In this document: positions 1,639-63,313 of the stretch, one piece after another
Layout of the letters: each line of letters starts with the position of its first letter
Position numbering within the stretch: the first letter of the stretch is position 1
Assembly: GCF_010669285.1 (NCBI RefSeq)
Contig: NZ_CP048711.1
Coordinates: 3,782,001 to 3,846,000, forward strand
DNA: 64,000 nucleotides
Reading direction: 5' to 3'
Source of the DNA: Kineobactrum salinum
GTDB lineage: Bacteria; Pseudomonadota; Gammaproteobacteria; Pseudomonadales; Halieaceae
Notes under the pieces: generated by a model
Database searches by the model: none
What the model saw: only the letters and a program-made list of their open reading frames with translations
What the model was told of the DNA's origin: nothing
Translations under genes and position numbers: made by a program

Positions 1639-2525
1639 TTAAGCAGCGCATTTATTCCGCTCAATTTCCTGTAACTTTCCAGGGTTGAGCGATACCGGTC
1701 CGGTTGCATCCCAGTTTCGGATTTGACCAGGCCAGCGTCTAGGATATAGGCGCTTTGCTCTTTCATAAACCGCTTTTCGATGCGTCAGTTTCTCAAGATA
1801 TTCGCCACGGTGCCGACTGCCCGGCGTGACGAAGTTGATGCCACTGAGCAAGTGCTGCTCGTTATAGGCATGCTCGAACGCCAGCATCCATTCACGAACC
1901 GCCCGCAGCGAATCAAAGCCCTTGACTGGCTATCTGGGACAGTACTTTACCGTCTTGAACAAGGACTCCTAATACGGGTTGTCATTGCTCACCCGGGGAC
2001 GGCTGTAGGACAGACGATCTTGCGACTGTAGATGTCCAGGATCAGGTACAGATACCAGTGCTGGCCGCGGACCACAGAAGGATAGCAACTGATATCCCAA
2101 CTCCAGACCTGGTTCGGCCCGGTGGCGGTAAAGCTGGTAGGCTCCGGCACTCTTCTGGTCGGTTGCATGCGCCCACGGTGGTTCAACTGCCGGTGTTTCT
2201 TTAGGACCCGGTAGAACGAGGACTCCGACGCCAGATAAACACCCTGATCAGCCAGCAGCGGCACGATCTGCGACGGCGGCAGGCTCTGGTGTTTCGGCAA
2301 GTTGTAGGTGCTAACGATCGCGGCTTCCTTTTCTGTGGTTAATTGATGGGGTTGCTCGACTCGATTCGCTTCAGCGCGTTGATCCTGAGAGACCGAACCA
2401 TCAGTTTCGCGCCAGCGCTTCAAGGTGCGCTGACTCAGATCCATCAGTTCCGCCGCCTTGTAGCGCGTCGCACCGCCGGCTATGGCCTCATCAAAGTACT
2501 GCAAGAGCCTAATACGCGCGGTCAA
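1639..2525 (-). pseudogene. IS3-family transposase OrfB, internally deleted
   Basis: The N-terminal part (2525 down to about 1990) has a helix-turn-helix (KAAELMDLSQRTLKRWRETD) and the start of the rve integrase core with the first catalytic Asp region (PNQVWSWDISCYPS, then YLYLILDIYSRKIV). After SRKIV the frame is lost, and the sequence resumes in another frame at SNDNPY-stop-ESLFKTVKYCPR-stop-PVKGFDSL, followed by REWMLAFEHAYNEQHLLSGI and GPVSLNPGK. The block carrying the second catalytic Asp is therefore deleted, and two stops lie in the rest. Non-functional. Confidence 0.75.
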
Positions 2526-2530
2526 CGAGG

Positions 2531-3037
2531 TCAGTTGTCCTCGTTGTCCGGATCTTCGCCGTACAAGGCCTCCAGCTTTTTTGACAGCACCAGCAGGGAG
2601 GTAGTCTCCCCCAAGGCGCGGTCCTTACGACGAACTTCCGCCTTCAGTTTCTTGATGGTTTTCCGGGATTCCCGCTGCTGCTTCTGGGCGGCTTTCTCCT
2701 GGCCTTCCTGCATGACAGCGCCCTGAAGGCAGGCTTCCTTCCAGCGCTGCACCTGCTCTGGATACAGGCCTTTCTCGGGGTAGTAAGCCCCGAGTTCGGC
2801 TTCAGACATGGCGGCGGTTTCAATCACAACAGCCAGCTTGGCTTCCGAAGACCAATGCTCTCCGATATTACGGTTACCCGGTACAGGTATTCCCTTTTGT
2901 CGACACTGTTTCAACCAACTATACAGAGTCACATCGGAAATGCCTTCCTCCGCTGACACCGACACCACGGTGCGGTTCAACGGGGGTAACAGCTTCTTCA
3001 GCACTGCGGCCTTACGTTCTTCGGAATACCGAGGCAT
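2531..3037 (-). CDS. IS3-family transposase OrfA
   Basis: A 168-residue protein beginning MPRYSEERKAAVLKKLLPP, containing a helix-turn-helix (VSVSAEEGISDVTLYSWLKQ) and a basic coiled-coil tail (ESRKTIKKLKAEVRRKDRAL), as expected of an IS3-group OrfA that binds the terminal repeats. ATG 3037 is preferred over upstream alternatives because the homology begins there. The partner OrfB is broken, so this copy is probably inert. Confidence 0.7.
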   Translation of the reverse strand: MPRYSEERKAAVLKKLLPPLNRTVVSVSAEEGISDVTLYSWLKQCRQKGIPVPGNRNIGEHWSSEAKLAVVIETAAMSEAELGAYYPEKGLYPEQVQRWKEACLQGAVMQEGQEKAAQKQQRESRKTIKKLKAEVRRKDRALGETTSLLVLSKKLEALYGEDPDNEDN

Positions 3038-3170
3038 GAAAGCTCTCATACCGCCCACTCTGGAGTGAATTCAGGCAAAATCGCCAACTGTACAACCAGG
3101 CTGACAGAGTGGGCATGCTCTAAATGAAGGTGTAATCCCCCCATTTCTAACCACCCATTTGAGTAGAGGG

Positions 3171-3968
3171 TTATGCTGCCTGTAGCAGCCGGGCCGGAGG
3201 TATCCCTCCTATAGCTGTATTGGGTCGCTCGTTATTGTATTCCCATAGCCACTGTGTCGCTAATAGCTGGGCATGGGCAACGCTGCTGAACTCATGCAGA
3301 TCCAGCCATTCATGTCGCGCGGTCCGGTTGAAACGCTCCACATAAGCATTCTGAGTTGGCTTGCCCGGCTGGATATAGATCAGCGTTATCCGGTTCTTGT
3401 TCGCCCACGCTACCAGCGACTGCGAGATATATTCCGGCCCATTGTCACAGCGAAGTGCCGCTGGCTTTCCACGCCATTCAATGATCTGTTCCAGTGCGCG
3501 AATCACGCGTGAGGCAGGTAACGACAAGTCTACTTCAATCCCCAGACCTTCACGGTTGTAATCGTCAATCACGTTGAACGTGCGAAAGCTCTTGCCGCTG
3601 ACGAGCTGATCACTCATGAAGTCCATGGACCAGACCTGGTTCGGCGCAGTCGGAACATCCAGTTCGCCTGGATAATCCCGCTTGATCCGCCGCTTGGGCT
3701 TGATGCGCAGGTTTAGCTCGAGCTGTCGGTAGAGGCGGTAGACCCGCTTGTGATTCCACGGGTAGCCCTTCACGTTGCGCAGATACAGGAAGCACAGCCC
3801 GAAGCCCCAGCGCTTGTGGGTTTGCGTCAGCTTTAGCAGCCATTCGGCAATCAGGGCATTCTCGCCATCCAGCTTTGCCTGATAGCGATAACAGGTCTCG
3901 CTAATGCCGTACACCACACACGCCAGCCGGACACTGATGCCATGTTTGGCCACGCCTTTCCTGGCCAT
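3171..3968 (-). CDS. IS3/IS407-type transposase OrfB (rve integrase core)
   Basis: From ATG 3968 the frame encodes 265 residues with the IS3 HTH_21 segment ([20 protein letters not shown]) and a complete rve domain. Catalytic acidic residues are visible in [15 protein letters not shown], in [12 protein letters not shown] and in [19 protein letters not shown] (Asp, Asp, Glu). The frame is open upstream of 3968 across the end of OrfA, so the active protein is probably an OrfAB fusion made by frameshifting. No disruptive mutation is seen. Confidence 0.9.
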
Positions 3969-3988
3969 CTCCCGGCGTTGAGATGGCC

Positions 3989-4255
3989 TTACAACTTTCC
4001 CTCGAGGGCTTCCTGGCGCAATTCGGCCTTGATCCGCTCTTCGGCATACATCTTCTTCAGGCGAGCATTCTCGGCTTCCAGCTCCTTCAACCGCTTCATG
4101 AGCGGCGCGTCCATCCCACCAAACTTTGCGCGCCACTGATAGATCAGTGCCGTGCTGACGTTGTGCTCGCGGGCCAGATCCGCGACCGGAACGCCCGCTT
4201 CGTGCTGCTTCAAAACCGCCAGTATCTGGCTGTCGGAAAATCGAGACTTCTTCAT
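3989..4255 (-). CDS. IS3/IS407-type transposase OrfA
   Basis: An 88-residue protein, [19 protein letters not shown]..., with a helix-turn-helix ([20 protein letters not shown]) and a leucine-zipper-like end ([20 protein letters not shown]). This is the standard IS407-group OrfA that recognises the terminal repeats and oligomerises. It ends EGKL-stop, with OrfB in another frame continuing just downstream, as in relatives where a programmed -1 frameshift makes the OrfAB transposase. Confidence 0.9.
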
Positions 4256-4324
4256 GCATCGCTCCTTCTGCGATCATTATAAAAGCCTCTACTCAAAATC
4301 TCGATTATTTTCTGGGGGATTACA

Positions 4325-18954: not shown

Positions 18955-20523
18955 TCACACCTTGATGGGCGGCTCCCAGTTGTGCGGCAGCAGAGCTGTC
19001 AGGTCAGATTGCCTGGCGGTGGGGATACGCTCCAGCACATGCCGCAGATAGGCCTGGGCATCAAGCCCATTGATCTTAGCCGACTGGATCAGCGTCATCA
19101 CGTTGGCCGCGCGCTGGCCGCTGCGCACAGAGCCTGCAAACAGCCAGTTCTTCCGCCCCAGGGCCCACGGCCTGATCTGGTTTTCCACCCAGTTGTTGTC
19201 GATGGGGATTCGCCCATCATCCAGATAACGAACCAGGGCCTCCCAGCGTTTCAAAGCATAATCGATCGCTTTGGCGGTACGTGTGCCGCTCGTCAGCTTG
19301 GATCGCTGTCCGGTTAACCAGCCATGGAATGCGGTGATGATGGGCCGCGCCTGTTGCTCGCGAACCTGTTGTCTGTGTTCCGGCATGGCTTCAGCCGTTG
19401 CGCGCTCAATCTCATAAAGCGCACCGATGGTGGCAAGGGCTCGCTCCGCAATCGGGCTCTGGTTGTGCTCCAGTAACTCATGGAACTTGCGTCTCGCATG
19501 GGCCCAGCAACCCACTTCGTGAATGCCCTGTACAAAGCCCGCTTTGTAGCCTGCGTAATCATCACAGATGAGGCTCCCCTGCCAACCGGCCAGGAACTCG
19601 CGAGACACCTGGCCGGATCGCGTGGGTTGGAAGTCGTACACCACGCCCTGTATCGGCAAGGTCCGCGGTGTCGCATAGGCCCACACATAGGCTCGCTGCG
19701 TTTTCTTCTTGCCGGGATCCAGCATCGCCACCGGTGTTTCATCGGCGTGCAGAATGTCCTGTGCCAGCAGTTCACGACGCAGCGCATCGACCAGCGGGGC
19801 CAGCTCCACCCCGCAGCGGCCCACCCAGTCAGCCAGTGTTGAGCGGGAGAGCTCAACACCCGCGCGGGCATAGATCTGCTGTTGCCGATACAGCGGCAGG
19901 TGATCCGCGTATTTGCTGATCAGCACCTGAGCCAGCAGGTTGGTCGTCGGAATGCCCTTGTCAATGACGTGGGGCGCCACGGGCGCCTGCACGAGGGTCT
20001 CGCACTGCTTACAGGCCCATTTGCTACGGATATGGCGTTCTACCGAGAACTGACCGGGCTCGTAGTCGAGCTTCTCACTGATATCTTCGCCAATGCAGGC
20101 TAGCTGGCAGCCGCAGGTGCACATGGTCGACTCGGGATCGTGGTGGATATCCGTGCGGGGCAATTCTGCAGGCAAGGATTGCCGTGCCGGCTTACGTGGC
20201 GTCCGCGTTGACCTGGGTGTGTCGGTGAGCTGCGCCAGCTCCGACTCTACCGCGGCGAGGTCCTCCTCAACGATGTCATCGAGCAGGCGGTATTGCGTGC
20301 TGCCACCCGCTTCACTGCGCTGGCCAAAGCGGTGACGTTTCAGTATGGCCAGCTCGTGAGTCAGTTGTTCGTTACGGATTTTGTAATGCTGCAGGGTCTT
20401 GTCGCGCTGGAGGAGTTCGGCGGCATGCTGCGCCTGTTGATCACCCAGCTGGGTGATCAACTGCGCTGCCATCTGGCGGAGCTGATCGTCTGAGAGGTGT
20501 GTGAGATCGGTGCGCAATTCCAT
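18955..20523 (-). CDS. tnpC: IS66 transposase TnpC (inner element)
   Basis: 522 residues from ATG 20523. It has an N-terminal leucine-rich helix region, a zinc-binding segment (MCTCGCQLACIGEDISEKLD, then KWACKQCETLVQ) and the IS66 DDE core: ILHADETPVAMLDPG (first Asp), LICDDYAGYKAGFVQG (second Asp) and DNNWVENQIRPWALGRKNWL (Glu). It is about the normal length for the family and intact. An in-frame ATG at 20565 is further upstream, but the homology starts at MELRTDLTHL. Confidence 0.93.
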   Translation of the reverse strand: MELRTDLTHLSDDQLRQMAAQLITQLGDQQAQHAAELLQRDKTLQHYKIRNEQLTHELAILKRHRFGQRSEAGGSTQYRLLDDIVEEDLAAVESELAQLTDTPRSTRTPRKPARQSLPAELPRTDIHHDPESTMCTCGCQLACIGEDISEKLDYEPGQFSVERHIRSKWACKQCETLVQAPVAPHVIDKGIPTTNLLAQVLISKYADHLPLYRQQQIYARAGVELSRSTLADWVGRCGVELAPLVDALRRELLAQDILHADETPVAMLDPGKKKTQRAYVWAYATPRTLPIQGVVYDFQPTRSGQVSREFLAGWQGSLICDDYAGYKAGFVQGIHEVGCWAHARRKFHELLEHNQSPIAERALATIGALYEIERATAEAMPEHRQQVREQQARPIITAFHGWLTGQRSKLTSGTRTAKAIDYALKRWEALVRYLDDGRIPIDNNWVENQIRPWALGRKNWLFAGSVRSGQRAANVMTLIQSAKINGLDAQAYLRHVLERIPTARQSDLTALLPHNWEPPIKV

Positions 20524-20603
20524 GACCGATACTGTGCCAAAGAATCGAGCACGGCACCAGATCAACTATTTGCGTAGACTACGGTGCCCTTTTTTGCTCT
20601 GCG

Positions 20604-20939
20604 CTACTGCCGGTCAATCACGTGATTGGCCGCCGCGTATTGCCAGGGCAAGCCGACCACGAGGGCCTGTAGCTGCGCGCTGTCGAGTGTGACCACGCCG
20701 CCCGTGCGCAGGGGGCTCCAGGTGAACTTGCCCTGATGTAACCGGCGCGCGGCGAGCCAGATACCGAAGCCATCACACACCAGCACCTTCATCCGGTTGG
20801 CGCGCTTGTTGGCAAATACGTAGGCACAGTGGTGCCGGGCTTCACCGAAGCTGTTGATGACTCGGGCCAGCGCCGTATCGGGGCCTGCCCGCATATCGAG
20901 GGGTTCACGCGCGAGCCAAATCTCGTCAATCTGTATCAC
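20604..20939 (-). CDS. tnpB: IS66 accessory protein TnpB (inner element)
   Basis: 111 residues starting at GTG 20939, which overlaps the tnpA stop as GTGA. The text REPLDMRAGPDTALARVINS, AYVFANKRANRMKVLVCDGF and GIWLAARRLHQGKF is the standard TnpB (Orf2) of IS66 elements, which is required for transposition in studied members though its biochemical role is unclear. Intact. Confidence 0.9.
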   Translation of the reverse strand: MIQIDEIWLAREPLDMRAGPDTALARVINSFGEARHHCAYVFANKRANRMKVLVCDGFGIWLAARRLHQGKFTWSPLRTGGVVTLDSAQLQALVVGLPWQYAAANHVIDRQ

Positions 20940-21301
20940 TGCAGGATGGACCTGAGCCAGGAGACCGAACGGTCGATCTCGCTCAATGGCCACTCCACGG
21001 TGACCTGGCCGAGCGGCGCATCCAGCCGGATGCTGACAGTGGGCTGAACTCGCGCTACGCTCTGGCCAGGGTTGGATGAGTCTTTGGTGGGCACGGGTAG
21101 CCGCACAAATTCTCCCGTGCCATCAACCGCCCGTGACCGGCGCCACTTGTGTACCAGGTTGAGGTTGAGGCCATGCCGCAGCGCGACCTCGGCCACGGAG
21201 GTGTTTGGCTGATGGCACTCGGCCAACACTCGCTGTTTGAACCTCGGCGAATAGCGCCGCCGCCGCTTGATGATCCTTGGAAGAGACGCTTCGTCATCCA
21301 T
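20936..21301 (-). CDS. tnpA: IS66 accessory protein TnpA (inner element)
   Basis: A 121-residue protein with an N-terminal helix-turn-helix (KQRVLAECHQPNTSVAEVAL, then HGLNLNLVHKWRR). This is the IS66 Orf1 type, likely a DNA-binding partner of TnpB and TnpC. It begins at ATG 21301 and its stop overlaps the start of tnpB. Intact. Confidence 0.9.
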   Translation of the reverse strand: MDDEASLPRIIKRRRRYSPRFKQRVLAECHQPNTSVAEVALRHGLNLNLVHKWRRSRAVDGTGEFVRLPVPTKDSSNPGQSVARVQPTVSIRLDAPLGQVTVEWPLSEIDRSVSWLRSILQ

Positions 21302-21430
21302 ATCAGGTGCCCACTTATCATTAGGTGGGCACCTAGCTTACGCAGTTCGCGGGGTTCGAAAAGATGGGTTTACCGGACGGTTACTGATGGGTAACGTAGG
21401 TGTCCACCTATTCGGAAGTGGACACCTGCT

Positions 21431-21796
21431 ATGGATCACGAAGCATCAACCCCAAGGATCATCAAGCCCCGCCGCAGACACTCCCGTGCTTTCAAGGAGC
21501 AGGTGCTTGCCGAGTGCCGGCACTCTGGCGAGTCGGTTGCCGCGATTGCCTTGCGGCACAGCATCAATGCCAATCTGATTCACAAGTGGCGCCGTGCGCG
21601 ACAGCGGGAAGCCAGCGACGAGTTCCTGCGACTACCCGCTCCAGGAGGGCCGATGCCACTGACAGCAACAATGCCTGTTACCCCTGGAGATACGATACGC
21701 CTGGAAGTGGCGGTGGGCCAGAGCCATATCACGGTGCACTGGCCGGTAAGCCAGATGCATCAGTCCGTCGAGTGGCTGAAGGCGCTCACGCAGTGA
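21431..21796 (+). CDS. tnpA: IS66 accessory protein TnpA (outer element)
   Basis: 121 residues beginning MDHEASTPRIIKPRRRHSRA, with the helix-turn-helix ECRHSGESVAAIALRHSINA. Homologous to but clearly diverged from the inner-element copy, so the two IS66 elements are related but not duplicates. The stop overlaps the GTG of tnpB. Confidence 0.9.
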   Translation: MDHEASTPRIIKPRRRHSRAFKEQVLAECRHSGESVAAIALRHSINANLIHKWRRARQREASDEFLRLPAPGGPMPLTATMPVTPGDTIRLEVAVGQSHITVHWPVSQMHQSVEWLKALTQ

Positions 21797-22128
21797 TCCG
21801 TATCGACGAGATCTGGCTATCCCGGGAGCCGCTGGATATGCGCGCCGGTCCCGACACGGCGCTGGCGCGCGTCATCAACCGCTTCGGCGAGGCGCGGCCC
21901 CACTGCGCCTATATCTTTGCCAACAAGCGTGCCAACCGGATGAAGGCGCTGGTGTGTGACGGCTTCGGTATCTGGCTGGCATCACGCCGTCTGCACCAGG
22001 GTCGGTTCGTCTGGAGCCAGCTGCGCACCGGTGATCCACTGGCCATTGATTTGCCGCAGTTGCAGGCACTGGTGGTCGGCTTACCCTGGCAGCATGCTGG
22101 CGCAGGGCACTTGATGGACCGGCATTAG
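21793..22128 (+). CDS. tnpB: IS66 accessory protein TnpB (outer element)
   Basis: 111 residues from GTG 21793 (GTGA overlap with tnpA). It contains IWLSREPLDMRAGPDTAL and CAYIFANKRANRMKALVCDG, very close to the inner copy. Standard IS66 Orf2, intact. Confidence 0.9.
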   Translation: MIRIDEIWLSREPLDMRAGPDTALARVINRFGEARPHCAYIFANKRANRMKALVCDGFGIWLASRRLHQGRFVWSQLRTGDPLAIDLPQLQALVVGLPWQHAGAGHLMDRH

Positions 22129-22217
22129 ATAACACCAGAATCCCGCTCACAGTTCCAGAGAACGATTGCCGATGATTGCGGCTGGCACGGATTTGCGGGT
22201 GCTGGCACAGTACTCCC

Positions 22218-23798
22218 ATGGAAGCGCCTATCGATCTCAATCATCTCAACGAGACCGAACTCCGCCAGATGGCGGAGCGGATGCTGGCGCAACTGGGTGA
22301 GCGCGATGCACGCCTTGCGGCGCAAGACGCCGAGCTTGCCGCACGCGACGAGGCTATCCGCCGCTACGGTATCCGCGAAGAACAGCTGACCCACGAGATT
22401 GCCCTGCTCAAGCGCCACCGCTTTGGGAAGCGCAGCGAAGGCGTCAACCGCCAGCAATACAGCCTGCTTGAAGAGCTTGTCGACGAAGACACGGCGGCCA
22501 TTGAACAAGAACTGGAGCGGCTGGCTGAGAGTCGTCCTCGACCTGAACCACAGCTCCGTACACCGAAGCGCCGGCCCTTGCCGCCGCAGCTACCGCGCAC
22601 CGAGATCCGGCATGAGCCTGACCACACCACCTGCAACTGTGGCTGTGCCCTGACCCGCATTGGCGAGGACATCAGCGAGAAGCTGGATTACGCACCCGGG
22701 CACTTCTCGGTGGAACGGCATATCCGCGGCAAGTGGGCCTGCCGGCAGTGTGAGACCATCACGCAGGCCCCGGTGGCACCGCACGTGATCGACAAGGGTA
22801 TTCCCACCACGAACCTGCTGGCTCAGGTGCTGGTCAGCAAGTATGCGGATCACCTCCCGCTGTACCGCCAGGAGCAGATTTACGCCCGGGCCGGGGTGGA
22901 GTTGTCACGATCCACACTGGCGGACTGGGTCGGACGCTGTGGCGTGGAACTGACCCCACTGGTGGAGCACCTGCGGAGCAAGCTGCTTGAACACCCGGTC
23001 CTGCATGCCGACGAGACGCCGGTGCCCATGCTGTCGCCGGGCAAAAAACGAACGCACCAAGCCTACATCTGGGCCTACGCAACGACGCGCTATGCGCCGG
23101 TGCAGGGTGTCGTTTACGACTTCCAGTCCTCACGCTCCGGCAAGGCCTCCCGGGACTTCCTGGCAGACTGGCGCGGTCATCTGGTCTGCGACGATTACAC
23201 CGGCTACAAGGCCGGCTTCGCCACGGGCATGACCGAAGTGGGTTGCTGGGCACATGCCCGACGCAAATTCCACGAGCTGATGGAGCGGAACCAAAGCCCT
23301 ATCGCCGAGAAAGCGCTAACGTACATCGGCACGCTCTACGACATTGAGCGCCAGGCCAATGGCCTGCCGCCAGACGAAAGGCAGCGGTTGCGTGACACCG
23401 AGGCACGGCCCATTGTTGCGCACTTGCGCGACTGGCTCACGGGTCAGCGATCACAGCTGACGAATGGCACACGGACTGCGAAGGCCATCGATTACACCCT
23501 GAAACGGTGGGCCGCGCTGATCCGCTACCTGGATGACGGCAATCTACCCATGGATAACAACTGGGTGGAGAACCAGATCCGACCCTGGGCCCTTGGCCGA
23601 AACAACTGGCTGTTCGCGGGTTCCTTGCGCAGTGGCCAGCGCGGTGCAAACGTGATGACTCTGATCCAGTCGGCAAAGATCAACGGTCTGGACCCGCAGG
23701 CTTACCTGTGTGACGTCCTGGCGCGCTTGCCGAGTGCGCGACAGTCAGACCTTGATGATCTGCTGCCGCATAACTGGATACCTGGAATCAAGGTGTAA
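22218..23798 (+). CDS. tnpC: IS66 transposase TnpC (outer element)
   Basis: 526 residues from ATG 22218. It has a zinc-binding segment (CNCGCALTRIGEDISEKLDY, KWACRQCETITQ) and a DDE core visible as LHADETPVPMLSPGKKRT, VCDDYTGYKAGFATGM and MDNNWVENQIRPWALGRNNW. Length and motifs are complete, so this element may be able to move despite the insertion near its left terminus. It ends 15 bp before the right inverted repeat. Confidence 0.93.
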   Translation: MEAPIDLNHLNETELRQMAERMLAQLGERDARLAAQDAELAARDEAIRRYGIREEQLTHEIALLKRHRFGKRSEGVNRQQYSLLEELVDEDTAAIEQELERLAESRPRPEPQLRTPKRRPLPPQLPRTEIRHEPDHTTCNCGCALTRIGEDISEKLDYAPGHFSVERHIRGKWACRQCETITQAPVAPHVIDKGIPTTNLLAQVLVSKYADHLPLYRQEQIYARAGVELSRSTLADWVGRCGVELTPLVEHLRSKLLEHPVLHADETPVPMLSPGKKRTHQAYIWAYATTRYAPVQGVVYDFQSSRSGKASRDFLADWRGHLVCDDYTGYKAGFATGMTEVGCWAHARRKFHELMERNQSPIAEKALTYIGTLYDIERQANGLPPDERQRLRDTEARPIVAHLRDWLTGQRSQLTNGTRTAKAIDYTLKRWAALIRYLDDGNLPMDNNWVENQIRPWALGRNNWLFAGSLRSGQRGANVMTLIQSAKINGLDPQAYLCDVLARLPSARQSDLDDLLPHNWIPGIKV

Positions 23799-28959: not shown

Positions 28960-28973
28960 TGGTACCGGAGGCC
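28960..28973 (-). repeat. Copy of tRNA-Leu 3' end (probable att site)
   Basis: TGGTACCGGAGGCC is identical to 58989-59002, the last 14 bases of the tRNA-Leu(CAA) gene including CCA. The identity stops on the tRNA-internal side after GGCC, while the outer flank is AT-rich at both sites. A 14-bp chance match in a 64-kb window is unlikely (about 2.7x10^8 possible 14-mers). The placement 271 bp before an integrase start fits an attachment site. Confidence 0.7.
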
Positions 28974-29243
28974 AAGTCCTCGGCGCAGTATCATAGAATC
29001 GCAATTTGTATTAAAATCCCTATAAAAATAGGTACAATACGAATTTCAGTGTCTTAACCTGTTTCATGCTCTATTATCAAATCACATCTTTTATGTTGTT
29101 ACAGTAGTAGTACCTACGTATTTGGGTCCGGTTTTTTTGATTCGATGTTGTAATGGATGTGGTTGAGCAATATTACCTCTTGAATCTATGGGATGTCTGG
29201 TTCCGGAACTCGGGTCCGGAAAGCCAAGCTGCTGGAGTGGACA

Positions 29244-29285
29244 ATGCCAAAGAGAGCGAGAGAACTGACAGATGCCGCTGTACGT
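29244..29285 (+). pseudogene. P4-type integrase, first 14 codons only
   Basis: ATG 29244 with a GGAG ribosome site begins MPKRARELTDAAVR, the usual opening of P4-family island integrases. The next base starts the 77-bp inverted-repeat element, and the frame does not continue as integrase after it, so only the start survives. Position and orientation (att copy on the left, gene reading rightward) mirror the integrase end at the left window edge. With 14 residues the family call rests on a short match. Confidence 0.5.
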
Positions 29286-29362
29286 TGGACTTCCCCTGGT
29301 TCATGGAGATTTCTAGACTATTCTGTGAGGCCGGGAACTCTCCATGAACCAGGGGAAGTCCA
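29286..29362. mobile_element. 77-bp MITE-like element with perfect 24-bp terminal repeats
   Basis: The first 24 bases (TGGACTTCCCCTGG...) are an exact inverse of the last 24, leaving 29 bases between. A near-identical copy of the left 43 bases stands alone at 58535-58577. The TGGACTTCCCC start resembles some IS3-family termini, so this could be a deletion derivative of such an IS. No target duplication longer than 2-3 bp is evident. It interrupts the integrase start. Confidence 0.7.
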
Positions 29363-29535
29363 GTTAGCTGATCGACTCTGGCCGTCCTTCTGCCGCCTGG
29401 TGTAAAAGTGCAAGCAGACGTACTTGGGTTACATCCATTGAACCACTTCACTTCCCATTTGGCAGGAGCGAAGTTGTTTGAGTCCTTCACCGTCGAAAAC
29501 ATGTGGAGGATTCTTGCGGGAGTAAAGTGGAGTAA

Positions 29536-30762
29536 TTACTTCGGTCGTCCTAGGGTTAGCAGGGCTAAGCCGCTAACGGTGACCAGTACCATGGTGAGCA
29601 CTAGGAACGGTGTATAGCTCTGGTGATAGTCGAAGGTGGCACCGGCGGCAAGAGGCCCGAATGCAGCTCCAAGTGTCAACGCAGCGACGACAACGCCGAA
29701 AAGCGCACCAAAATTTCTTAAACCAAAATATCGGCTGGAGAGATAGGCCATGACGTCTACTTCTGCTCCCAAGGTGAAGCCTATGATTATTGCGGCCACA
29801 ATCTGATTGGATATTCTGTCGCCTTGTGTGAGAAGCAGGACGCAGGCAATGTTTGCAATGAGAAATATAACTGCTCCCACCCGCTCGCTTGAAAAGCGGT
29901 CAAGGAGGAATCCAGTCCCCAAGCGTCCGACAAATGAGGAGATGCCAATTATAGAGGCGATTCCGGCTGCAGCGAGTCGACTACTACCGTATTCCATCAG
30001 GATAGGAACAAAATGCACCAGAATCCCGATCATTGTGAAGGCGAACATTGCGCCTGCAAATAGCAGCTTGTAGAGAGCTGGGGAGCGGAAACCCTCTGCT
30101 AGACTAATCCCGATCTCTGCTCTATTTGGCTTGATGGTAGCAACATCGATCGATTCCTGGGGTTGATCCGCCGCGCCACGAAAACGCAGAAAAATGATCG
30201 GAAGTACTATCGTAGTCCATAGTATAGCGGTTGCTCTAAAAGCTGTTCGCCAGCCATAATTTTCTATAAGCCATGCCGACAGTACTGGAAACAGGGTCGC
30301 TCCTATAGGCGCCCCTGAAAGGGCGACCGCAAAGGCGATGCCCCTCGAGCGCTCAAAGCGACTTGCCACAGCACTCGTCCAGACAGTTGACTGTGCCCAC
30401 GGTACACTTACTGCCACGAAGCTCCACAAGAGTACCCAGTTCAAAATGTGTCCAGTAGCTGTGCCCAGTGAGGAGTACGCTATGGCTATCAATAGGACTC
30501 CGATTAACCCGATGCGGCGAGGTCCTAGTCGGTCGACCAATATGCCCACGGGTATGCACAGAAGAGCACTTCCTACATTGGCGATGGTGATCCCAAGCGA
30601 GACTTGCGCGCGTGTCCAGCCGAACGCGTGCTGCAGCGGTTCAATGAACGGGCCCAATGAGTAGATGTGGAGAACGGACATAGAGTACCCGAATGCTGCG
30701 ACACATGGGAGATACCAGTATCGCTGCCATTCAATCTGCACCTCACGCGTCGCATAATTCAT
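29536..30762 (-). CDS. MFS transporter
   Basis: About 408 residues with many hydrophobic segments in two halves, as in 12-helix major facilitator permeases. The motif between TM2 and TM3 reads GILVDRLGPRRIGLIGV, and the TM8-9 equivalent reads GTGFLLDRFSSERVGAVI. The overall style resembles the monocarboxylate/oxalate-formate (MCT/OFA) branch. ATG 30762 has AAGGA upstream, and a GTG at 30783 is in frame. It would move a small acid, substrate or product across the inner membrane. It is divergent from the TonB receptor at 31162. Confidence 0.88.
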   Translation of the reverse strand: MNYATREVQIEWQRYWYLPCVAAFGYSMSVLHIYSLGPFIEPLQHAFGWTRAQVSLGITIANVGSALLCIPVGILVDRLGPRRIGLIGVLLIAIAYSSLGTATGHILNWVLLWSFVAVSVPWAQSTVWTSAVASRFERSRGIAFAVALSGAPIGATLFPVLSAWLIENYGWRTAFRATAILWTTIVLPIIFLRFRGAADQPQESIDVATIKPNRAEIGISLAEGFRSPALYKLLFAGAMFAFTMIGILVHFVPILMEYGSSRLAAAGIASIIGISSFVGRLGTGFLLDRFSSERVGAVIFLIANIACVLLLTQGDRISNQIVAAIIIGFTLGAEVDVMAYLSSRYFGLRNFGALFGVVVAALTLGAAFGPLAAGATFDYHQSYTPFLVLTMVLVTVSGLALLTLGRPK

Positions 30763-31161
30763 ATAGTCCTTATGGTCTCTCACAGCCGTTCAAGGGTTAT
30801 AGGCTGAATAAGTTGTTCTGTTTGGTTTGAGAAAATGTGGCCTGTTTCGTCTGCTCCTTGCCTGGGGGCAGCGTGGACACTGGCTGCTCGTCAGCGTGCG
30901 GGCCTGTGGGTCCAGACAAGCATAGCCTCGTGGCTCGTATCGATACAGAGGCAGTTGGCGCACTTTGCATCGTCTGCATCACATTTGGCGCGAATTGCAT
31001 CTTTGCTTCCGCATATATGTGCCGCCGGATTGCATACACTTATCTTCGGTTGCCCAGTAGTGTGATCCTAGTTACTGAGACTTGGGCACCTAAAGAAACG
31101 CTAGTACTGGTGTTCTCCAGGTCGTCAGATAAAACAATAATCTGCAAAGAGGCAAACACAA
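30763..31161. other. Divergent intergenic region (MFS / TonB receptor)
   Basis: A 399-bp region between two outward-facing genes, which must hold promoters for both. I do not see a convincing sigma-70 pair or a repeat of the GACCGGTC operator. A long frame across 30837-31256 lacks homology and is not called. Confidence 0.4.
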
Positions 31162-58503: not shown

Positions 58504-58988
58504 GTATGTAGGGCGAAACGTGCACGATCCTGAATGGACTTCCCCTGGTTCATGGAGATTTCTAGCTTATTCTGTACGCTCTAGTATCCTGTGCGTCCCG
58601 CATGAGCGACCGCGACAAGATCGTAAGCATTGAATATCATACTTCTCCGGCGGTGGAAAGATAGTCACCGAGGAAGGGGACCGACACCCCCCTTTTCATG
58701 AAGCTAGCCAATACTCTGGATCACGTCGAGTGTATTGCGGTCCAATCGATCAAGTCGCGTACAATCGTGTTTCTCGTTACAAGCACAACCCAAGTCTGTT
58801 CGCATGAGTCTGTTAGTGGCATCTCCTGTACGAGAAAGGATCCATCAGACCCCAGGGGGAAGGATGTCCGAGATCTGCTAGCTGACCGAATTCTGGGTTG
58901 CGTAGTTTGAGAATTGGCTTGCTGAGATTTTATGTTGTTATTTATTTGGTTATATTCATTATGTAACTTATTGATAATATTGATATTA
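58504..58988. other. Island-B right margin, no gene
   Basis: A 485-bp stretch between the last ACAD and the tRNA gene. It contains the solo inverted-repeat end (58535-58577) and a very AT-rich tail (58,915-58,988) directly against the tRNA 3' end. The AT-rich tail resembles that beside the second att copy at 28.9 kb. Small frames here are not supported. Confidence 0.5.
58535..58577 (+). repeat. Solo copy of the MITE-like terminus
   Basis: It matches 29286-29328 with two mismatches in 43 bases (TGGACTTCCCC..., ending ATTCTGT). Only one end is present, and the inverse arm found at 29339-29362 is missing. With the copy at 29.29 kb it forms a direct repeat enclosing 29 kb of island B. Confidence 0.8.
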
Positions 58989-59075
58989 TGGTACCGGAGG
59001 CCGGACTCGAACCGGCACGCGTTTTACCGCATCGGATTTTGAATCCGACGTGTCTACCAATTTCACCACTCCGGC
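58989..59075 (-). tRNA. tRNA-Leu (CAA)
   Basis: The 87-nt minus-strand sequence begins GCCGGAGTGGTGAAATTGGT and ends CTCCGGTACCA, with the CCA encoded. The anticodon loop is TTCAAAA with anticodon CAA (complement of 59039-59041), and there is a long variable arm as in class II tRNAs. The first acceptor pair is G-U rather than G-C. The 3' end faces left and abuts the accessory DNA, so this is the likely integration site. Confidence 0.97.
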
Positions 59076-63114: not shown

Positions 63115-63166
63115 TACCTAGTACGAATGGCAATTACTTTAGCTGACTCCGGTAGAAGGTCGGCGT

Positions 63167-63262
63167 CCTGGGCGGGTGCTTTCGAGACCGTTTGCAGCAT
63201 GGATGCTGCAACCGAGCCCCCATGGAGGGGTTAACGGCGTGTCTCGAAAGCACCCGCCCAGG
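63167..63262. repeat. Structured inverted repeat with nested hairpins
   Basis: Perfect 22-bp arms (CCTGGGCGGGTGCTTTCGAG.., 63167-63188, and its inverse at 63241-63262) enclose two smaller palindromes: GCAGCATGGATGCTGC (63194-63209) and CCCC...GGGG at 63217-63230. The long stem capped by two hairpins looks like a REP/BIME-type dispersed repeat rather than a terminator, as no T-run follows. It lies between convergent genes (DUF1289 and CorC-like). Confidence 0.75.
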
Positions 63263-63313
63263 ATGTCGGCCGGGCTACGAAGTCCCAAAACCCTCAAGTA
63301 AGTGCCATTCTAC

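Follow-up and report, generated by a model that had tools for sequence, protein, structure and literature searches.

Organization of the locus

The window, a stretch of 64,000 nucleotides of Kineobactrum salinum (contig NZ_CP048711.1, positions 3,782,001 to 3,846,000), contains a tRNA-Leu(CAA) gene whose 3′ end recurs further left as a direct repeat, the start of an integrase gene close to that repeat, a 77-bp element with inverted ends and, at the left edge, the end of a second integrase piece (Table 1). Two islands of about 30 kb, here termed A and B and of one integrase lineage, appear to stand in tandem at this tRNA gene, a sequence-based reading that relies on the core repeats, the GC content, the integrase pieces and the stretches shared by the right ends. 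The cores are located at genome positions 3781017, 3810960 (window 28960) and 3840989 (window 58989) and bound blocks of 29,943 bp (A) and 30,029 bp (B). The two cores of B agree exactly over 14 bp, while the left border of A, directly before the headless integrase body, reads TGGTACCGGAG, an exact match of 11 bp (12/14 bases). The 205 kb examined contain four copies of this 11-mer, where arithmetic predicts about 0.1: each of the three borders carries one, and the fourth lies elsewhere in the opposite strand. The exact 14-mer has three copies genome-wide, the third of which, at 3599832, lies inside an SDR-like frame (MVVPEAF; named by eye) and is read as a coincidence.

Table 1 Features of the locus, with positions given in the window unless marked otherwise
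Feature	Position	Strand	Basis or remark
Headless integrase body of island A, 3′ end	1–194 (whole: genome 3781017–3782194)	+	PF13356, PF22022
Core direct repeat TGGTACCGGAGGCC between A (left) and B (right)	28960–28973	+	Equals the tRNA-Leu 3′ end, 58989–59002
Leader, 270 bp, from core to integrase start	28974–29243	+	Within the 343-bp stretch 86% identical to L054
Integrase head, codons 1–14, MPKRARELTDAAVR	29244–29285	+	39/42 bases as in the L054 gene start; N-terminus pattern as in full-length relatives
77-bp element, IS3-family-like ends in inverted orientation	29286–29362	+	Arms 29286–29309 and 29339–29362
First long reading frame of island B past the element, MFS-transporter-like	29536–30783	−	ORF list; named by eye
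Partial element copy, left 41 bp only	58535–58575	+	95% identity over 41 bp; close to B's right end
tRNA-Leu (CAA), 3′ end is the right-hand core of B	58989–59075	−	ARAGORN

The GC content, in 10-kb steps, is 0.48–0.56 in the blocks versus 0.59–0.65 at 3641–3751 kb and 0.63 right of the tRNA. The GC border is sharp on the right, at the tRNA, whereas on the left GC declines gradually, starting near 3751 kb, with 3771–3781 kb already at 0.52–0.58; the left border of A is therefore defined by the core remnant together with the integrase body. At the right ends of both islands a TTGAT-containing, AT-rich stretch precedes the core, and such stretches are also found at two places in Haliea. Two features expected of a tRNA-integrated island, direct repeats of the tRNA 3′ end on either side and atypical GC content, are present, and the integrase is there as remnants only. 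The cargo of A and B, named by eye, includes acyl-CoA synthetases and dehydrogenases, SDRs, TonB receptors and PQQ-type dehydrogenases and looks catabolic. Two transposon-like gene sets (IS66-like by eye) stand back to back in opposite orientation at 18955–23798 of island A, and transposase-like frames are also located at window 1989–4277.

The integrase head of island B

Codon 14 of the head ends at 29285, one base ahead of the 77-bp element. The coordinates given in the initial annotation are exact, and the integrase frame gives way to the element right after 14 codons, as described there. The accompanying statement that the frame ends at the element holds for the integrase part, but the reading frame itself stays open through the element to 29405 and encodes 53 aa, of which 14 are integrase; the integrase protein is thus replaced, not stopped, at codon 14. 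A tblastn comparison of two full-length integrases with window 29000–31000 matched codons 1–14 at 64% identity (E 0.30 and 0.40), a match that is not significant by itself. All other matches in this interval were at chance level and scattered over several frames, and no integrase body was found there right of the head, in agreement with the original observation that no integrase sequence follows.

The 14-residue match being insufficient, the integrase identity of the head rests on its DNA match to Haliea. The closest relative, locus L054 on contig 9 of genome G076, corresponds to Haliea sp. E1-2-M8 NZ_JAUTDR010000017.1 (identical over the 6393 bp compared). The segment 28942–29284, which spans 343 bp of core, leader and head, is 86% identical to this locus, and the match breaks off one base before the 77-bp element. 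Base 29285, the last of codon 14, is already a mismatch to the Haliea homologue, which makes 29284 the final base of the DNA likeness. The Haliea locus displays the order core–leader–head–body: its gene has the same 14 residues and goes on with RRLRHG... (CGG AGG CTG CGA CAC past the head), followed by an internal deletion and then by the integrase body. On this DNA likeness MPKRARELTDAAVR is the start of an integrase, and its reading as an integrase start in the initial annotation stands; the refuting condition named there, that no homologous island has it as an integrase start, does not hold. The leader carries three GGKNCCGG motifs, at 29124, 29199 and 29212, all of which are also present in L054; the mean in 2000 mononucleotide shuffles was 0.015 and no shuffle reached three. 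These motifs are possibly candidate arm-type sites of the integrase.

More distant relatives of the integrase are widespread. When the body found at the left end of island A was searched against 140 genomes of the family, 55 of them, K. salinum included, matched at E ≤ 0.001. Among 30 loci from that search the nearest full-length relatives start with MPKSVPGLSDAAVRRL, MPRLAQELSDAAVRRL, MPKLAKELSDSHVRRL, MPRLAKELTDAKVRRL or similar sequences, and many more distant ones possess long unbroken frames. The core 10-mer GGTACCGGAG was present in 1 of 31 integrase loci examined, K. salinum's own orphan body, and a tRNA was detected in 1 of 16 of these loci (tRNA-Leu(TAA) in L033); thus, the more distant relatives do not visibly share the tRNA target. 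Relatives of the body were also found at seven loci in GTDB contigs, the Haliea copy being 86% and the remaining ones 32–59% identical, and at two loci in viral contigs (38 and 50%).

Further island homologues were not recovered at the DNA level in the order, where 4 of 390 genomes matched, namely K. salinum itself and three with weak leader matches; with at most two candidates scored in the genomes listed, and the Haliea genome not among the matches, this is a weak negative. A second order-wide search, equally weak under the same scoring limit, matched K. salinum alone of 390 genomes. The DNA behind the element (29363–31150), searched in the 140 family genomes, returned K. salinum itself and three weak matches, all within the MFS-like frame, and none of these matches (at most two candidates scored in those shown) displayed an intact left end of B.

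The 77-bp element

The arms of the element are identical over 24 bp, which bears out the perfect 24-bp terminal repeats reported for it, and contain one mismatch over 28 bp; the middle is 29 nt long. When the 64-kb window was scanned for perfect inverted repeats (at least 16 bp, arms at most 100 nt apart), two places emerged, the element and 63166–63263, so the element is not a product of chance. The second repeat has 23-bp arms by seeds and lies beyond the islands, close to the window's right edge. A genome-wide search for the element, as suggested in the initial annotation, yielded one complete copy plus one 41-bp end. The left end matches five other places, at 58535, three in G076 and one in G084, with 89–95% identity over 31–45 bp, and any match to it was found in 3 of 145 genomes, K. 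salinum included. Four of the five other end copies lose their likeness about 39–42 bp in, with different sequence after each; these solo ends in differing contexts are L014, L016, L018 and 58535–58575. In L016 a second end-like sequence directly follows the first, and in the Klebsiella relative L114 the first 40 bp of the end stand in tandem.

The family assignment comes from the remaining copy (G084, L015), where the same end precedes an OrfA remnant by about 60 bp (PF01527, E 1e-6 over 32 aa). The DNA of this remnant matches 27 plasmid records with 60–80% identity, and among the 20 records listed some are annotated as IS3 family transposase and others are unannotated. Because the end precedes an OrfA remnant that resembles annotated IS3 transposase DNA, the 77-bp element is most likely, on sequence grounds, a remnant of IS3-family ends whose inside is gone. 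By eye, one of these ISs, on a Klebsiella plasmid, has a similar layout, its TGGAC... end being separated from the start codon by about 60 bp and its two ends being imperfect copies of each other. Like IS3-family insertion sequences, the element has ends that begin with TG and finish with CA, besides the spacing of its end to OrfA in a relative; unlike them, it is only 77 bp long, lacks a transposase and a target duplication, and has perfect 24-bp ends. IS3-family insertions duplicate 3–4 bp of their target. The element is flanked by ACGT on the left and GTTA on the right, and with no target duplication it is not a clean insertion and is classed as an IS remnant. No full-length IS bearing such ends turned up in the genomes, plasmids or viral contigs searched, neither OrfB nor a right end was seen in L015, and four OrfA relatives in G081 (59–61% identical) had no such end in the loci examined. 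A plasmid or viral source of the stretch was rejected, as 29180–29420 had no match in plasmids and the 23-bp end had none in viral contigs.

The orphan integrase body of island A

The initial annotation regarded the integrase body as missing and proposed a genome search for it. None was found right of the head, but a headless body of the same lineage stands at the left end of island A, 30 kb left of the head of B, on the same strand and mostly outside the window. PF13356 and PF22022 score above the cut-off on this body, while PF00589 on its last part falls below (20.2 vs 27.1 bits). Genome positions 3781204–3782106 display 89% DNA identity over 905 bp to the integrase body of L054. The body carries two frameshifts, so that three frames are needed to read through it. 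The two islands are therefore complementary, with a head without a body in B and a body without a head in A. One other PF13356 integrase is encoded in the genome, an unbroken frame of 454 aa at 4031 kb that is 43% identical. The pieces resemble the P4-type tyrosine integrases, which carry the PF13356 arm-binding domain, in the N-terminus pattern of the head, in PF13356 and PF22022 on the orphan body and in a core at the 3′ end of a tRNA; they differ from them in being split over two islands and broken in both.

Loss of the integrase

The account preferred here, with a probability of roughly 0.7, is that of two tandem islands, with an IS3-family insertion at codon 14–15 and later loss of the body in B and a separate decay in A. 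Each island would have been brought by a tyrosine recombinase of the same lineage, with a gene start some 270 bp inward of the left core. An IS3-family element would have entered the integrase of island B at codon 14–15; only the 77 bp of its two ends would later have remained, and the flanking integrase body would have been lost, probably via an IS-adjacent deletion or recombination with another IS copy. In island A about 360–370 bp between the core and about codon 30–34 would have been lost, with frameshifts afterwards; this deletion size is estimated by analogy with Haliea and B. The gene pieces, the cores, the element with its likeness to the end before the OrfA remnant and the absence of the body in B are observed directly; the order of events, two separate gene copies in A and B and the loss of mobility are inferred. 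The account gains from the Haliea locus, where the head precedes a body that is 89% identical to the orphan body of A. It is weakened by the missing target duplication, by the failure to find a full-length IS with such ends in the collections searched, by the gradual left GC border of A, by the lack of an integrase of this family left of tRNA-Leu in 15 relatives, by the fact that no empty site was seen in the species, and by the complementarity of head and body, which also fits one gene split by rearrangement.

For the loss in B the initial annotation had offered two routes, insertion of the element followed by deletion and recombination between element copies. The damage to the integrase at the element stands; insertion with an adjacent deletion fits the head of B best, and copy–copy recombination is kept as a rival. 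The missing target duplication excludes only a clean insertion and does not choose the route. Recombination between two IS copies in or near B, which would have removed the body and left a hybrid pair of ends, overlaps the preferred account, whose deletion route is left unspecified. It is tentative and the less probable choice: the absent target duplication and a second left end in B at 58535 in the same orientation agree with it, but that copy is a 41-bp end 29 kb away with the cargo still between, and no second complete copy was found in the genome.

Head and body could also derive from one gene copy, if a circle of island A had inserted via a site in its own integrase gene instead of via attP, giving body–A–core–leader–head; B would have entered afterwards and would then have lost, at the 77-bp element, its left end together with the integrase it had brought. 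Read from the body through the A cargo, core and leader to the head, the order is indeed an exact circular permutation, and the left junction consists of the core TGGTACCGGAG fused to the body at about codon 30–34. Such a history is nevertheless unlikely, since it requires more events, the junction at 28960 (TTGAT-rich arm left, leader right) fits tandem islands as well, and L054 displays the normal order core–leader–head–body. It is very improbable that the 77 bp represent a mobile MITE or a hairpin with a structural role, such as a terminator, instead of an IS remnant. The shortness, far below transposase length, and the perfect 24-bp ends are outweighed by the absent target duplication, by one complete copy and one 41-bp end where a MITE should have several whole copies, and by a stem without a T run 3′ of it, which speaks against a terminator.

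Decay across the integrase lineage and mobility of island B

Four copies of the integrase were found by likeness to the head or the body, and all are broken, each differently and all with sequence missing within the first hundred codons (numbered by the G076 contig-6 integrase). B retains codons 1–14 only, A starts at about codon 30–34 and is frameshifted, Haliea lacks codons ~19–92 and is frameshifted, and G072 has codons 1–12 followed by pieces from about codon 172. The distance from core to start codon is 18 bp in G072, with the core variant TGGTGCCGGAGGCC, compared with 268 bp in the Haliea copy and 270 bp in that of B, and the new junction in both A and G072 involves the core or a core variant. 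A long shot is that the integrase deletes its own gene start, with recombination between the core and core-like motifs within or right in front of the integrase gene removing the leader and the N-terminus and so fixing islands after entry; if true, such self-deletion would be a simple built-in route from a mobile to a fixed island. The A and G072 junctions could be integrase-made or arise by slippage between short repeats, and the two cases are a lead only.

The proposal that the damage locks island B in place is weakened: B shows no integrase of its own, but its cores are intact and the genome holds the 454-aa PF13356 integrase, which might help in trans. With no visible integrase in B and a broken one in A, B should not excise by itself, so that excision in cis has probably been lost. 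Published work on accretion considers how a functional element may mobilise its decayed neighbours (PMC9513070).

Overall, tandem islands have decayed here in an ordinary way, one pattern being mildly intriguing, and the initial annotation is right on the gene and its damage, incomplete on the missing body and too strong on locking. AICEs of Streptomyces are integrative elements that accrete at one tRNA gene while resident ones decay (PMC9513070). A and B resemble them in successive elements bounded by the same direct repeats at one tRNA and in remnants that lack function genes. They differ from the AICEs in a host of the Haliea family, in a catabolic-looking cargo (by eye) and in having both integrases broken; conjugation genes were not noticed in A or B. 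None of the publication titles returned by the literature searches referred to this locus. The locus illustrates how islands in a gammaproteobacterium of the Haliea family can become fixed by successive entry at one tRNA, each integrase being lost by a different lesion. In practice, when the body of an integrase seems to be missing, the adjacent island is worth searching for it.

Surroundings of tRNA-Leu(CAA) in relatives

The tRNA-Leu(CAA) gene stands beside queA in 19 of 19 loci scanned, K. salinum included. The 60 bp left of it vary among 15 relatives, five of which (L099, L102, L111–L113) share one similar flank, and these 15 did not reveal what formerly adjoined the tRNA. The match in K. 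salinum to the Haliea gene left of the core lies at 1908 kb and thus does not identify the former neighbour either. In the 15 relatives, the stretches on the left side of tRNA-Leu yielded no integrase of this family.

Several of these loci carry further tRNA-derived repeats. Left of tRNA-Leu(CAA) in L101, L103, L104, L106, L108 and L109, two to four tRNA-Leu 3′ ends, the tRNA counted, stand in a row with a spacing of 71–125 bp, and resemble tRNA-tail repeats or stacked solo att sites; about 22 bp are common to most, the comparison in L108 and in one L104 copy covering the 11-mer only. In L099, L102, L111, L112 and L113 a 40-bp 5′ part of tRNA-Leu(CAA) is repeated about 50 bp beyond the called tRNA, as if an element had entered inside the tRNA and its own copy had restored the gene. 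In G072 a 59-bp tRNA-Leu piece (L057, 8447–8505) lies about 3.7 kb away from the integrase remnant, with the genuine tRNA of this contig at a distance of about 92 kb, which suggests a longer island array there.
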